Below the pieces are notes generated by a model, which did not search any database, was not told where the DNA came from, and saw only the letters and a list, made by a program, of their open reading frames with translations. Source: Bacteroidia bacterium (GTDB lineage Bacteria > Bacteroidota > Bacteroidia > B-17B0 > Aurantibacillaceae). From it: a stretch of DNA of 49,469 bases. The translations under genes and the position numbers were made by a program. How positions within the stretch are numbered: position 1 is the first letter of the stretch; each line of letters starts with the position of its first letter. The stretch lies in contig JANYIQ010000170.1 in the NCBI GenBank assembly GCA_025362575.1, positions 1 through 49,469 on the forward strand, written 5' to 3'. Below are positions 14,665-18,753 of this stretch, piece by piece.

Positions 14665-15993
14665 TTAATTTTCTAATTTTAATTTTAAGATCTTTTTTGT
14701 TTGTTCATTTATTTTGTAACGATCATCAATGCGATAACCTATTACCCAAACAATATCATTTTTGTTTAACAGTAACCAAACATCTTCTTTCTCAAATTGA
14801 TTTAATTTTTGATCTGTAAAAAAATCGCTTAACTTTTTAAAACCATTTACACCTAAAGGTTTGAACTTGTCGCCGGTCTGCCACTTTCTTACTATTAACG
14901 GAAATTCAAGTTTATTGAGATCGAGCTGAGCGATTTTTTTATTGGATTCAATTTCAAAATTGCTGATCAATTCCGTCGAGAGATCAAAAGGAAGATCCTG
15001 AAATGCTTTACGATCCTTTATTTGAAATTCTTTTTGTTGTTCTGAATTTTTAATTGCCTCGATAATAAGATAAGAACGGTCAATTAAGATCTTATGTGAA
15101 TCTGAAAAGAATAATTTACCCGGTAATTTGGTGCTCACGCTTTTAAGCATGGTGCCTGTTTGCGAAGCATTGAATCCATAGGGATGAATGAATTCAAAGA
15201 GTAATAATTCTTTATGTCTTTCTTTCTCTAATTTTTTAATGTCGATCTTAACCTGAGCATTTTTTTCACTTACGATCTCTTCTTTTTTTGAATCAGTAAA
15301 TTGCTTTACAATGTCGGCCGATTCTTTGAATAATTTAATGTTCTGTTCAAAGGTGCGCTCCAGGGCAGGATTCAATTCTTTTAGTTTCGGAATAACATTA
15401 TGACGTAAAAAATTACGCTTGTATTTTACTTCGTCGTTGCTGCTATCTTCTCTGTATTTCAGTTTGTTTGTTTTCGCGTAAGCAATGATCTCATCTTTGC
15501 TTGCAAATAACAGAGGTCTTACCAGGTGATCTTGTTTTTCGGGAATGCCTTTTAGTCCGTTAATGCCGGTACCGCGAATCAAATTGATCAAAAGTGTTTC
15601 TACATTATCATTGGCGTGATGCGCTGTTAGGACATACTTGTATTTATTTTTTTGGACCAGACTTTTGAACCAATCGTAACGCAATTGTCTTGCCGCCATC
15701 TGAATGGACAGATCATTTTCGGCAGCGAATTTTTTTGTTTCGAATTGTTGAGATAAAAAATTAAGCTTTGCCTTTTTTGCGAGATCGGCGCAGAATTTCT
15801 CATCGCCTTTTGATTCTTTTCCTCTTAAATTGAAATTGCAGTGTGCAAGATCGAATTTGTAGCCTAATGCAAGTAATAAATGACTCAATACCACAGAATC
15901 AACCCCGCCGCTAAAGGCGAGCAATAGCTTATCGTTTTTCGAAAAAAGTTCGTTTTGTTCTATATGTTTGCTTAAACGCTCAAGCATAAACAA
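14665..15993 (-). CDS. tilS: tRNA(Ile)-lysidine synthase
   Basis: This 442-residue enzyme makes lysidine at C34 of tRNA-Ile(CAU), which lets it read AUA instead of AUG. The PP-loop SGGVDS is at 28-33 in LLLAFSGGVDSVVLSHLL, and the ATP-pyrophosphatase domain continues with AHCNFNLRGKES, LTAHHANDNVETLLINLIRGTG and RPLLFASKDEII. The TilS-specific C-terminal domain includes WQTGDKFKPLGVNGFKKLSDFF (near 375-396). A second ATG two codons inside is an equally likely start. Essential in bacteria with this tRNA. Confidence 0.95.
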   Translation of the reverse strand: MFMLERLSKHIEQNELFSKNDKLLLAFSGGVDSVVLSHLLLALGYKFDLAHCNFNLRGKESKGDEKFCADLAKKAKLNFLSQQFETKKFAAENDLSIQMAARQLRYDWFKSLVQKNKYKYVLTAHHANDNVETLLINLIRGTGINGLKGIPEKQDHLVRPLLFASKDEIIAYAKTNKLKYREDSSNDEVKYKRNFLRHNVIPKLKELNPALERTFEQNIKLFKESADIVKQFTDSKKEEIVSEKNAQVKIDIKKLEKERHKELLLFEFIHPYGFNASQTGTMLKSVSTKLPGKLFFSDSHKILIDRSYLIIEAIKNSEQQKEFQIKDRKAFQDLPFDLSTELISNFEIESNKKIAQLDLNKLEFPLIVRKWQTGDKFKPLGVNGFKKLSDFFTDQKLNQFEKEDVWLLLNKNDIVWVIGYRIDDRYKINEQTKKILKLKLEN

Positions 15994-16092
15994 AGATAAC
16001 AGGAATTTTTGAGGATTGTTGGGAAGGTATGATTCATGATGAATGCAATAATTACCGCGGTTCTGGGCTAATAACGTGGTATTAACTACCGA

Positions 16093-16136
16093 AAAATAAA
16101 AAACCCTCAGCCTGAATTAAATAAATTTAAAACTGT
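16093..16136. repeat. 44-bp direct repeat, left copy (partial duplicate of the tRNA-Arg terminator)
   Basis: This segment is identical to 16510-16553 over 44 bases. It contains one arm of the terminator hairpin (AAACCCTCA) and the AT-rich loop, but lacks the second arm. It sits between the bulged hairpin doublet and tilS. The pair brackets the GIY-YIG gene. Confidence 0.9.
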
Positions 16137-16185
16137 CCCGAGGTGGCAAAGCCACTCGGGATGGCGAGTCCTTTGGACCTCGCCA
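16136..16185. repeat. Doublet of mirror-image bulged hairpins (REP/BIME-like)
   Basis: Hairpin 1 (16136-16161) has stem TCCCGAG-TGGC / GCCA-CTCGGGA, one bulged G at 16143 and an AAA loop. Hairpin 2 (16162-16185) has stem TGGCGAG-TCC / GGA-CTCGCCA, one bulged C at 16178 and a TTT loop. Read on the other strand, hairpin 2 has the same architecture as hairpin 1: NNNCGAG, bulged G, inner stem, AAA, inner stem, CTCGNNN. They are therefore two inverted copies of one hairpin design, as in REP doublets. They lie just downstream (minus strand) of the GIY-YIG gene. Confidence 0.85.
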
Positions 16186-16199
16186 TGAGGTTCAGTCAA

Positions 16200-16481
16200 C
16201 TAAACAGCAAGGTATTTGTTAATAAACCTATTAAGGTCTTTTCGATTAAGGTTTTTTAGTTTTTTCTCAAGAATCATAGCCTCAGACCTGGTTTCCTTTT
16301 CGATAAAGCCAATAATTATCCAAGGAGCAAAGAGTTTGGTTGATCTTACGTGCCCTGAATTATGAAAATTAAGTCTATTTGTAAGGTTTTCTGTTTGACC
16401 AATATAAAATCTATCATGAGCTTCAGAATATAGAATGTAGGTATAGAACCGATTATTTTGTTTTAACTCCGACATAACCAA
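16200..16481 (-). CDS. Free-standing GIY-YIG nuclease domain protein
   Basis: A 93-residue protein that is almost only a GIY-YIG endonuclease domain (UPF0213/YhbQ-like, also related to the UvrC N-terminus). The two motif halves are YTYILY (GIY position) and FYIGQTENLTNRLNFHN, including the YIG, the catalytic-type Arg and a conserved His-Asn. The metal-binding Glu lies in SEAMILEKKLK, with a basic tail RKDLNRFINK. The active site looks intact. The first ATG is used; a second start two codons in is possible. The gene is bracketed by a 44-bp direct repeat and abuts a hairpin doublet, between tRNA-Arg and tilS, suggesting it arrived as a unit. Confidence 0.85.
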   Translation of the reverse strand: MVMSELKQNNRFYTYILYSEAHDRFYIGQTENLTNRLNFHNSGHVRSTKLFAPWIIIGFIEKETRSEAMILEKKLKNLNRKDLNRFINKYLAV

Positions 16482-16509
16482 AATTAAAAGTTTTTTCTGA
16501 TGAAGTTTT

Positions 16510-16553
16510 AAAATAAAAAACCCTCAGCCTGAATTAAATAAATTTAAAACTGT
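16510..16553. repeat. 44-bp direct repeat, right copy (inside the intact tRNA terminator)
   Basis: It is identical to 16093-16136. Here the hairpin is complete, because the right arm TGAGGGTTT continues to 16561. This copy is therefore likely to be the original and the left one the duplicate. Confidence 0.9.
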
Positions 16554-16561
16554 GAGGGTTT
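16512..16561 (-). terminator. Terminator of tRNA-Arg
   Basis: Read on the minus strand, AAACCCTCA (16561-16553) pairs with TGAGGGTTT (16526-16518) over nine bases and runs into a T-rich tract (TTTTTTATTT). The 26-base loop holds a small internal TTAAAT/ATTTAA stem. It begins 43 bases after the tRNA 3' end. Confidence 0.8.
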
Positions 16562-16603
16562 ATTGGTGTTTGGCACCTTCTTTTGAAGTATGAAACTTCA
16601 TTG

Positions 16604-16677
16604 TGATCCTGTCGCGGCTCGAACGCGAAACCTATAGCTTAGAAGGCTATTGCTCTATCCAGTTGAGCTACAGGACC
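16604..16677 (-). tRNA. tRNA-Arg (anticodon TCT)
   Basis: The minus strand folds as a complete 74-base cloverleaf. The acceptor arm GGTCCTG pairs with CAGGATC (one G-T). The D arm is AGCTCAACTGGATAGAGC. The anticodon stem ATAGC/GCTAT encloses the loop CTTCTAA with anticodon TCT, which reads AGA and AGG. The T arm is TCGCG-TTCGAGC-CGCGA and the discriminator is A. CCA is not encoded. A terminator follows 43 bases downstream. Confidence 0.97.
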
Positions 16678-16797
16678 AGTAATTTCAAGGGCACAAATTT
16701 AACAAAAGAATTTAAACCTTCTATTTATAAAGACCCTAAACTTTCAGTAAAACTTCCTATCTACAGCTTAATTTGGTATTTTAGAGGCTTTTATCGC

Positions 16798-18753
16798 GTG
16801 TACGATCTGTCGGTCATCATAGTTAATTATAATGTTAAACACTTCGTAGAGCAGTGTTTGCACTCGGTTTTTAATTCGTGCAAGCAGCTTAAGGTCGAGG
16901 TTTTTCTGGTAGATAACAATTCCGTGGATGGCTCTGTAGCCTTTGTGAAGCAAAAATTCCCACAGGTTAAAATAATCGAGAACAAAACCAATACAGGCTT
17001 TTCGGTAGCTAATAACCAGGCCATTAAGCAAAGTTCGGGTAAGTATGTGTTGCTTTTAAATCCCGACACTGTGGTTCAGGAAGATACTTTCGAGAAAGTG
17101 GTAAAATTCATGGAGGAGCACCCGGATGCAGGCGGACTCGGCATTAAAATGGTGGATGGTAAAGGAAATTTTTTACCCGAGTCAAAGCGTGGATTACCAA
17201 CGCCAAGCGTGGCATTTTACAAGATCTTCGGATTATCAAAATTGTTTTCCGGCTCAAAAAAGTTCGGACAATATCATTTAACCTATTTAGATAAGGATAA
17301 AAATCATCAGATCGATGTTCTGAGTGGTGCATTTATGCTACTCAGAAAAGAAGCCTTAAATAAAGTGGGTTTACTTGATGAAACATTTTTTATGTATGGT
17401 GAGGATATCGACCTCTCGTATCGCATTACTTTAGGGGGATACAAGAATTATTATTTCGCAGAATCCAGCATCATACATTACAAAGGAGAAAGTACAAAAA
17501 AAAGCAGCGTTAATTATGTGATCGTGTTTTACAAGGCCATGGCAATTTTCGCGAAAAAGCATTTCAGTACCGGAAATGCCAAACTGTTTACCTTTTTAAT
17601 TTACCTCGCCATTTATCTCAGAGCTGCGGTTGCAATTGTAGCGCGCTTTTTAAAACAGGCTTTTTTCCCGGCCATCGATTTTGTTTTGATCTTGATAGGA
17701 TTATATTTCATAAAGGATATTTACGAATCTGAATTTAAATTCGTGGAAGGGTTTTATGAAAAAAAACTGATCAATGTCGCTTTTCCTGCTTACACCTTGA
17801 TATGGATGTTCTTTAATTTTTTAAGCGGGGGTTACGACCGACCTCTTAAGATCATGAAAATGGTTCGCGGTGTTCTGGTTGGAACAGGATTTATTTTAAT
17901 TGTTTACTCCTTGCTTCCGGAAATGTATCGTTTCTCCAGAGCCCTGATCTTATTGGGAACAGCTTATGTGATCCTAATTTACATCATCACAAGACTCATA
18001 TACCATTTCGCAGGATTGAAACGTTTTGCATTTAAAGTTGAAGAAAAAAGCAAACGTATAGTTATTATAGGTAGCGAAGAAGAATTTGATCGCGTTTACG
18101 GTTTATTAAAAGAAACCCGTATAAAGGCAGGTTTTGTAGGATTTGTGAGCAATAACGATAATGGTGTAAAACATCCGCAATACATTGGCAATTTCAATCA
18201 GGTAAATGAGATCGTTGACATTCATAATATCAATGAGATCATTTTTTGTGCCAAGAATGTTTCATCACAGGATATCATTGAGCGAATGCTAACGCTGGTA
18301 ACAAAAGGTGTTGATTTTAAAATCGCACCTCCCGAAAGCCTTTCCATTATTGGAAGTAACAGCATTGATACAGCCGGTGATCTTTACGTTATAGATGTGA
18401 ACAATGTAGGTAAGCCCGAAAATAAACGTAAAAAACGTTTGTTCGATCTGGCTTCTGCTTCAGTACTTTTGTTGTTCTCTCCGGTTTTAATTTTAGTTCA
18501 AAAAAATAAAATTGACTTCTTGGGAAATTGCTTCCGTGTATTCTTCGGATTGTATTCCTGGGTGGGATATGGAAAAGCGCCTAGAAAAGATCTGCCTGAA
18601 TTAAAACCTTCTGTTCTAACTCCGGCCAATGCTTCGGATATGGTTTTACCGGATGATAAAATAAATCTATTGCTTTTATCTTATTCCAAAGATTACAAAG
18701 TAGAAAATGACATCAGAATCATTTTAAAAGCAATCAAGTTGTTGGGGAATTAA
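16798..18753 (+). CDS. Composite glycosyltransferase: GT2 plus Rossmann domain plus remnant of a sugar-1-phosphate transferase
   Basis: This 651-residue protein has three parts. Residues 1-240 are a GT2 domain (VYDLSVIIVNYNVKHFVEQC, LLLNPDT at 86-91 as the DxD equivalent, and GEDIDLSYR). Membrane helices lie at about 265-285, 288-304, 330-342, 358-373 and 383-400. Residues 419-500 form a Rossmann domain (RIVIIGSEEEFDRVYGLL) like the CoA_binding_3 domain that precedes WbaP/WcaJ phosphoglycosyl transferases. Residues 543-651 start like such an enzyme (KRKKRLFDLASASVLLLFSP) but lack most of the catalytic core. The GTG at 16798 is chosen as start; longer versions would run back through the tRNA gene. 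Probably makes a surface glycan. Confidence 0.8.
   Translation: MYDLSVIIVNYNVKHFVEQCLHSVFNSCKQLKVEVFLVDNNSVDGSVAFVKQKFPQVKIIENKTNTGFSVANNQAIKQSSGKYVLLLNPDTVVQEDTFEKVVKFMEEHPDAGGLGIKMVDGKGNFLPESKRGLPTPSVAFYKIFGLSKLFSGSKKFGQYHLTYLDKDKNHQIDVLSGAFMLLRKEALNKVGLLDETFFMYGEDIDLSYRITLGGYKNYYFAESSIIHYKGESTKKSSVNYVIVFYKAMAIFAKKHFSTGNAKLFTFLIYLAIYLRAAVAIVARFLKQAFFPAIDFVLILIGLYFIKDIYESEFKFVEGFYEKKLINVAFPAYTLIWMFFNFLSGGYDRPLKIMKMVRGVLVGTGFILIVYSLLPEMYRFSRALILLGTAYVILIYIITRLIYHFAGLKRFAFKVEEKSKRIVIIGSEEEFDRVYGLLKETRIKAGFVGFVSNNDNGVKHPQYIGNFNQVNEIVDIHNINEIIFCAKNVSSQDIIERMLTLVTKGVDFKIAPPESLSIIGSNSIDTAGDLYVIDVNNVGKPENKRKKRLFDLASASVLLLFSPVLILVQKNKIDFLGNCFRVFFGLYSWVGYGKAPRKDLPELKPSVLTPANASDMVLPDDKINLLLLSYSKDYKVENDIRIILKAIKLLGN

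Follow-up and report, generated by a model that had tools for sequence, protein, structure and literature searches.

We found that a small GIY-YIG nuclease gene behind a tRNA-Arg gene in the window (the whole stretch of 49,469 nucleotides of Bacteroidia DNA that was analysed) belongs to a family of units that sit at tRNA genes of many isotypes. In its gene-bearing form the unit is made up of a bare GIY-YIG nuclease of 80-95 amino acids, a hairpin or an inverted doublet of bulged hairpins, and, with the hairpin lodged in it, a partial duplicate of the host tRNA or its terminator; the gene-free form is a hairpin-only copy. The units have this anatomy at sites that are empty in other genomes, are inserted at G^YT, are amplified in tandem and have a nuclease under purifying selection; the end of the tRNA is duplicated on insertion, one intact tRNA is left, and the gene is co-oriented with it. 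We interpret the units as a class of selfish mobile element of Bacteroidota, living in and around tRNA genes, in which the nuclease cuts the tRNA gene or its terminator and the unit is copied in by repair, and we give this reading a probability of about two in three. The further step, that the hairpin owes its mobility to the nuclease itself, we infer at about even odds.

Organisation of the unit in the window

The minus strand reads, in order, tRNA-Arg(TCT), terminator, 91-amino-acid GIY-YIG gene, a second terminator copy split by a 50-bp hairpin doublet, and tilS. The target locus is the intact tRNA-Arg gene (anticodon TCT) at 16603..16677 on the minus strand, which was identified by ARAGORN and scores 64.6 bits against Rfam RF00005; its intact rho-independent terminator spans 16510..16564 on the same strand (inverted repeat I7). 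The earlier note had described a free-standing GIY-YIG gene between two identical 44-bp direct repeats, the right one belonging to this tRNA terminator, and each of these points was borne out. The repeats lie at 16093-16136 and 16510-16553, 417 apart from start to start, and the gene between them (16200..16475, minus strand) encodes a full domain (Pfam PF01541, E 7e-15) in which the active-site residues are those invariant among 34 relatives. Its product has 91 amino acids when read from the ATG and 93 when read from a TTG at 16481 (open reading frame 16200-16481, minus strand).

The left repeat had been thought to lack the second arm of the terminator. It can be seen, however, that the arm is present beyond the doublet and is one base shorter, so that the terminator is interrupted and not truncated. 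This second copy (16093..16192, minus strand) was delimited by repeat comparison and by the empty site of genome G003 (L155), and consists of the left 44-bp repeat together with a remnant arm, TGAGGTT, at 16186-16192. On the gene strand the interrupted copy reads AACCTCA-[50-bp doublet]-CAGTTTTAAATTT...GGTTTTTTATTTT, or, with the doublet spelled out, AACCTCA-[TGGCGAGGTCCAAAGGACTCGCCA TCCCGAGTGGCTTTGCCACCTCGGGA]-CAGTTTT, and the intact copy reads AACCCTCA-CAGTTTT. It had also been proposed that a 417-bp unit entered the terminator; the insertion stands, but 417 is the spacing of the repeats, and the unit includes the doublet and the second terminator copy. In the closest relative (L006/L025) the second terminator copy is whole, and the same doublet lies in the other arm in opposite orientation.

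The doublet (16136-16185) has the inverted, bulged architecture that had been claimed for it. Hairpin 1 (16136..16161), TCCCGAG-G-TGGC AAA GCCA-CTCGGGA, has an 11-bp stem with a bulged G, and hairpin 2 (16162..16185), inverted relative to it, TGGCGAG-TCC TTT GGA-C-CTCGCCA, has a 10-bp stem with a bulged C and belongs to a hairpin family of the genus. The two are mirror images, each with its bulged base beside CGAG and a 3-base loop. As single-stranded DNA the doublet folds at -19.9 kcal/mol, compared with -8.8 +/- 2.2 kcal/mol for shuffled sequences (z -5.05), and none of 200 shuffles was as low.

Group I introns of tRNA genes that carry GIY-YIG endonucleases likewise tie such a gene to the interruption of a tRNA. 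Here, however, there is no intron: the tRNA remains intact and was the sole Rfam match over 15900-16900, and a group I intron was therefore rejected.

The arrangement recurs at tRNA genes across Bacteroidota

Small GIY-YIG genes of this family in 60 close relatives and in a 148-genome sample of the phylum gave 106 distinct loci. An intact tRNA gene was found no more than 250 bp from the nuclease gene at 81 of these (45 of 60 loci from the relatives and 36 of 46 from the phylum sample), compared with a chance expectation of about 1% by our own estimate from some 40 tRNA genes per 4 Mb, and gene and tRNA are co-oriented in all 81. Seven of the ten phylum loci with no intact tRNA nearby hold tRNA fragments. 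The arrangement recurs at almost every tRNA type across Bacteroidota, and this wider class of target, tRNA genes in general, had been missed by the earlier note.

At 81 of 96 loci the tRNA was present again, in part, on the far side of the gene (alignment above the best of 50 shuffles), and in 81 of 81 cases the tRNA of the locus itself matched the partial copy better than did foreign isotypes. Two mirror-image layouts were seen. In type A (72/96) the intact tRNA and its terminator are followed by the gene, and this in turn by a hairpin-bearing 3' part of the tRNA and often a second terminator; type B (24/96) has the 5' part of the tRNA with the hairpin, the gene, whose stop codon is sometimes inside the tRNA, and the intact tRNA. 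In type B, 19 of 21 upstream copies start from the 5' end of the tRNA, and in type A, 46 of 60 downstream copies run to its 3' end. Interruptions of at least 10 nt were found in 56 partial copies, 21 of them in the T-arm, 19 in the D-arm and 9 in the anticodon region, and 40 of the 56 fold at z < -2.

In the nearest relatives (GTDB contigs, L005-L022) the gene mostly lies between an intact tRNA and a partial copy of it that one or more hairpins interrupt, the tRNAs hit being Arg, His, Asp, Gly, Lys and Pro. Some type B loci (L005, L007, L008 and L009) apparently have the promoter box of Bacteroidota (TAnnTTTG) twice, once ahead of the interrupted tRNA and once ahead of the intact one, and in these units the promoter may have been duplicated too. 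Units are frequently arrayed in tandem, from two to eight together, at periods of about 320-450 bp, and at L057 a single tRNA has one unit on either side.

Some individual loci deserve mention. Eight GIY-YIG units lie in tandem with tRNA-Met fragments at L201 (G109:C34:5700-11000), with a period of about 365 bp, and a GIY-YIG tandem array at tRNA-Met (L074, G029:C5:145450-151280) contains a gene that by eye resembles an IS30 transposase. A Candidatus Sumerlaeota contig (JAFGFK010000075.1, L024) carries a broken GIY-YIG gene 53 bp behind tRNA-Asn, a match outside Bacteroidota that hints at a wider spread.

Empty and filled sites

The earlier note had looked to relatives for empty sites, and these were found (in G003 when compared with G001, and at two tRNA-Arg genes in G005 when compared with G007). 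The comparison was anchored on the tRNA side because the tilS side could not be used as a flank in six congeners, in which the tilS orthologues have no tRNA nearby. At tRNA-Arg(ACG) the site is empty in G005 and filled in G007, and the flanks to either side are nearly identical; the insert, of about 68 bp, has the form GGTTCTGTAG-[doublet]-CTCAAC-14 nt and lies just before the intact tRNA. A second empty and filled pair between the same two genomes, again with near-identical flanks, is provided by the 5' side of tRNA-Arg(TCT).

The 3' side of tRNA-Arg(TCT) is the site occupied in the window. G003 has a single terminator there with no insert, and its upstream flank is common with that of G001, which has the gene, a second terminator and the doublet. 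The site is empty in G004, filled in the window and occupied by gene-free forms in G005 and G007, and G006 has three terminators with ATCCCGATAGCTATCGGGAC between them. As presence, kind and number differ among congeners at this one tRNA, we conclude that the unit is variable. The proposal of a mobile unit with a GIY-YIG gene and bulged inverted hairpins is thus upheld by the empty sites and the recurring hairpins, and neither of the findings named beforehand as contrary to it, an arrangement universal in relatives or hairpins present here only, was encountered.

Gene-free hairpin copies and the insertion site

Hairpins were found both beside other GIY-YIG genes and as gene-free copies, the two places in which the earlier note would have them sought. 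The pattern of the window hairpins occurs in five of the eight genomes of the genus, in 2, 2, 4, 1 and 15 copies (control 0-1), and is absent from the other three (G002, G003 and G006); the 15 copies are those of G007, compared with 0-4 in the other congeners. The copies in the genus form the doublet [TCGCGAGG..CTCGCGA][TGGCGAG..CCTCGCCA], with variants. In G007, 12 of the 15 are at tRNA genes, nearly all with no GIY-YIG gene in the unit, and these tRNA-linked copies comprise a duplicated piece of tRNA with the hairpin in one of the two copies; L119 is a triple tandem array. The linkers of 14-40 nt in the gene-free forms are possibly remnants of the gene. Over 23 doublets, the insertion site has G at -1 in 21, a pyrimidine at +1 in 21 and T at +2 in 16 (G^YT), and within tRNAs this corresponds to GTAG^CTC in the D-loop and GGG^TTCGA in the T-loop.

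A potential explanation that would give the hairpins no role is that the nuclease gene is a homing gene, and that unrelated REP-like insertions gather in the non-functional tRNA copy since they are tolerated only there. This is in keeping with the dispersal of some palindrome families, with weak matches of 20 of 34 nuclease members to a group I intron endonuclease model, and with the likeness to the phage nuclease SegB in tRNA association, nuclease family, tandem amplification and T-loop cleavage motif (PMC13096335). However, hairpin-only units show the same tRNA duplication with no nuclease gene, hairpins occur at sites with no tRNA homology, which are beyond the reach of homing, and the presence of the hairpin at one type of site (G^YT) in most tRNA copies is too regular for chance. 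We regard this explanation as unlikely, at something like one chance against four.

Hairpin copies away from tRNAs are mostly in short tandem repeats. Those at L112, L117, L118, L123, L126 and L225 lie in or beside such repeats, for example (tttgatg)n and (ggtgttc)n, and the L225 hairpin is within a tandem duplication of about 120 bp; it looks as if the insertion process itself perhaps made these duplications. In G043 the palindrome CCTGCCTGCCGGCAGGCAGG (CCTGCCTGC..) is present in 50 copies (control 0), REP-like and mostly off tRNAs. L223, L226 and L228 are examples of G043 loci with CCTGCCTGCCGGCAGGCAGG, and at least one copy lies inside a tRNA-Arg copy beside a GIY-YIG gene.

The tandem repeats around non-tRNA hairpins (for example, L225) could also be taken to mean that replication slippage duplicates the tRNA ends in tandem and fold-back copying makes the palindromes, the nuclease, with its SLX1/UPF0213-like fold, being a host repair enzyme kept by tRNAs. 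Against this, the outer hairpin arms (TCGCGAGG/TGGCGAGG) are conserved across copies, genomes and genera, from which it follows that the hairpins are copied and not newly made, and the nuclease genes are patchy and multi-copy, unlike a housekeeping repair gene. We therefore hold such an origin to be very improbable.

The nuclease and its association with the hairpin

The AlphaFold2 model of the protein (pLDDT 91.7) shows a bare GIY-YIG domain with a helix at its C terminus, and Y15, Y26, G28, R36, H40 and E72 are invariant in 34 members. The nearest solved structures by sequence are UPF0213 (1zg2, 2e-15) and SLX1 (1e-8), in agreement with the fold search. SLX1 is a branched-DNA nuclease, and UPF0213 (YhbQ/YazA-like) and SLX1 proteins are single-copy cellular proteins or repair subunits; the nuclease described here, nearest to them in sequence and fold, differs in being multi-copy, linked to tRNAs and accompanied by hairpins. 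Close pairs have dN/dS of about 0.11-0.16, which indicates that the protein is kept functional by purifying selection. No relative was found in the phage and plasmid collections, which were searched by tblastn, or in the viral contigs scanned, and a phage or plasmid vehicle is thus unsupported.

When hairpin class was mapped onto a tree of 141 domains, 24 changes were required; free shuffles never needed fewer than 58, and 300 shuffles confined to taxonomic families never fewer than 50. The clade of the window nuclease (support 99/86) takes in all eight sampled loci whose own unit has the TGGCGAG hairpin, and these are at four kinds of site: the Arg(TCT) terminator, the Arg(CCG) D-loop, the Arg(TCG) D-loop and the His T-loop. 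Several nuclease subfamilies with different hairpins are found within one genome, G000 (L001, L002 and L003). The target tRNA likewise follows the nuclease tree (10 changes over the 27 loci of the family), and shared descent at one locus may therefore explain part of the pairing between hairpin and nuclease. G004, which is 75% complete, and G005 have these hairpins, and a search of the two genomes found no nuclease closely related to that of the window.

A second GIY-YIG subgroup, which forms its own starred clade, is off tRNAs and lies between or inside long inverted-repeat elements that are MITE-like (G000:C64:11226-11724, that is L003/L088 and L219-L220, together with L050, L059, L060 and L086). 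The inverted repeats are TTTAGCCCGTAGGAT..ATCCAACGGGCTAAA and GTTGGACTTTCC..GGAAAGTCCAACGTCA, and the 106-nt repeat has only two copies in its own genome, both flanking the GIY-YIG gene.

Relationship to known mobile systems

SegB of phages T4 and T6 is a free-standing GIY-YIG homing endonuclease (PMC13096335, Nat Commun 2026). The T6 enzyme cuts within tRNA genes, at the motif RAWTSGAAC, and causes tRNA and segB to be amplified in tandem (PMC13096335); we read this motif as the antisense strand of the T-loop. SegB is the strongest outside support for the mechanism proposed below. The units share with SegB a free-standing GIY-YIG gene by tRNA genes, outside any intron or intein and beside its target, and the tandem amplification of tRNA and nuclease; as with homing genes of this type, alleles with and without the gene occur at orthologous sites (G001 and the window against G003 and G004). 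They differ in being chromosomal in Bacteroidota, in having a bare catalytic domain of about 90 amino acids, and in having hairpin-interrupted partial tRNA copies and gene-free hairpin forms. To our knowledge, homing genes have no hairpins of this kind, do not re-make a tRNA and lack gene-free forms.

The earlier note had likened the unit to REP sequences and their RAYT transposases. The likeness is one of doublet form (two bulged hairpins in an inverted pair, inserted precisely and also found as hairpin-only copies) and does not extend to the enzyme. REP/BIME elements (PMC3733652) share with the units a short inverted pair of bulged hairpins, precise insertion, dispersed gene-free copies and a small partner nuclease gene, but the partner here is GIY-YIG and not Y1/HUH, and the targets are tRNA loops with duplication of the tRNA end. 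It might still be argued that the doublets are REPs moved by RAYT (Y1/HUH) transposases, with the GIY-YIG genes as passengers, as a precisely inserted inverted pair of bulged hairpins is REP/BIME-like and all eight genomes of the genus have Y1 transposases. GTAG REPs, however, usually flank their RAYT (PMC3733652), whereas this hairpin family was found within 1.5 kb of none of the 25 Y1 loci in the genus. In addition, G002, G003 and G006 have Y1 genes and no hairpins, and the 23 doublets have no fixed unpaired GTAG or CGTC tag, a GTAG, where one precedes the hairpin, being that of the tRNA D-loop. RAYT mobilisation was rejected on the Y1 loci, and we leave the passenger explanation only a slight probability.

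In classical IS and MITE elements, by comparison, the duplication is a short target duplication and terminal inverted repeats bound the element, whereas here a long, isotype-specific piece of tRNA is duplicated and the inverted hairpins are inside one copy and not at the two ends of the gene. On the features tested, the unit belongs neither to the SegB type nor to REP/BIME, and it lacks what defines RAYT/REP and IS/MITE elements.

A possible mechanism

Our preferred reading, a selfish element inserted by cutting and repair, would operate as follows. The nuclease would be expressed from the tRNA promoter and would cut the tRNA gene in the D-, anticodon or T-loop, or the terminator hairpin, perhaps acting on folded single strands. 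Repair would then copy the unit in and duplicate the end of the tRNA, to give one intact tRNA and one copy interrupted by the hairpin at the cut and thereby protected from being cut there again. The hairpin would mark the cut and is probably the structure recognised by the SLX1/UPF0213-like nuclease. Several observations count against this reading. The presumed cut site is still present in the intact tRNA copy, the second copy being the one interrupted by the hairpin; the target tRNA follows the nuclease tree as the hairpin class does; G004 and G005 have the hairpins with no close nuclease relative found; some palindromes, such as that of G043, are dispersed mostly off tRNAs; and a related GIY-YIG subgroup sits in long inverted repeats. 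We know of no GIY-YIG nuclease that drives transposition in bacteria. That the enzyme here is the mobiliser of hairpin-marked, tRNA-targeting elements in parallel with RAYT and REP, the essential gene being spared by duplication of the tRNA end and hairpin-only forms being moved in trans, is a proposal whose chances we judge to be evenly balanced.

Significance

No account of chromosomal units of GIY-YIG gene, tRNA and hairpin was found in the open-access literature, and a description in a subscription journal is possible; the enzyme family itself is known. If our interpretation is correct, Bacteroidota would harbour a class of bacterial mobile DNA with a novel type of driver nuclease, and a parasite would have a route into essential tRNA genes that does not kill the host. 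The units would be chromosomal parallels to phage SegB, and they may offer a mechanism for orphan palindromic repeats that have no transposase, such as the CGTC REPs (PMC3733652). They would also account for the abundance of small GIY-YIG genes and of broken copies of tRNAs in genomes of Bacteroidota.
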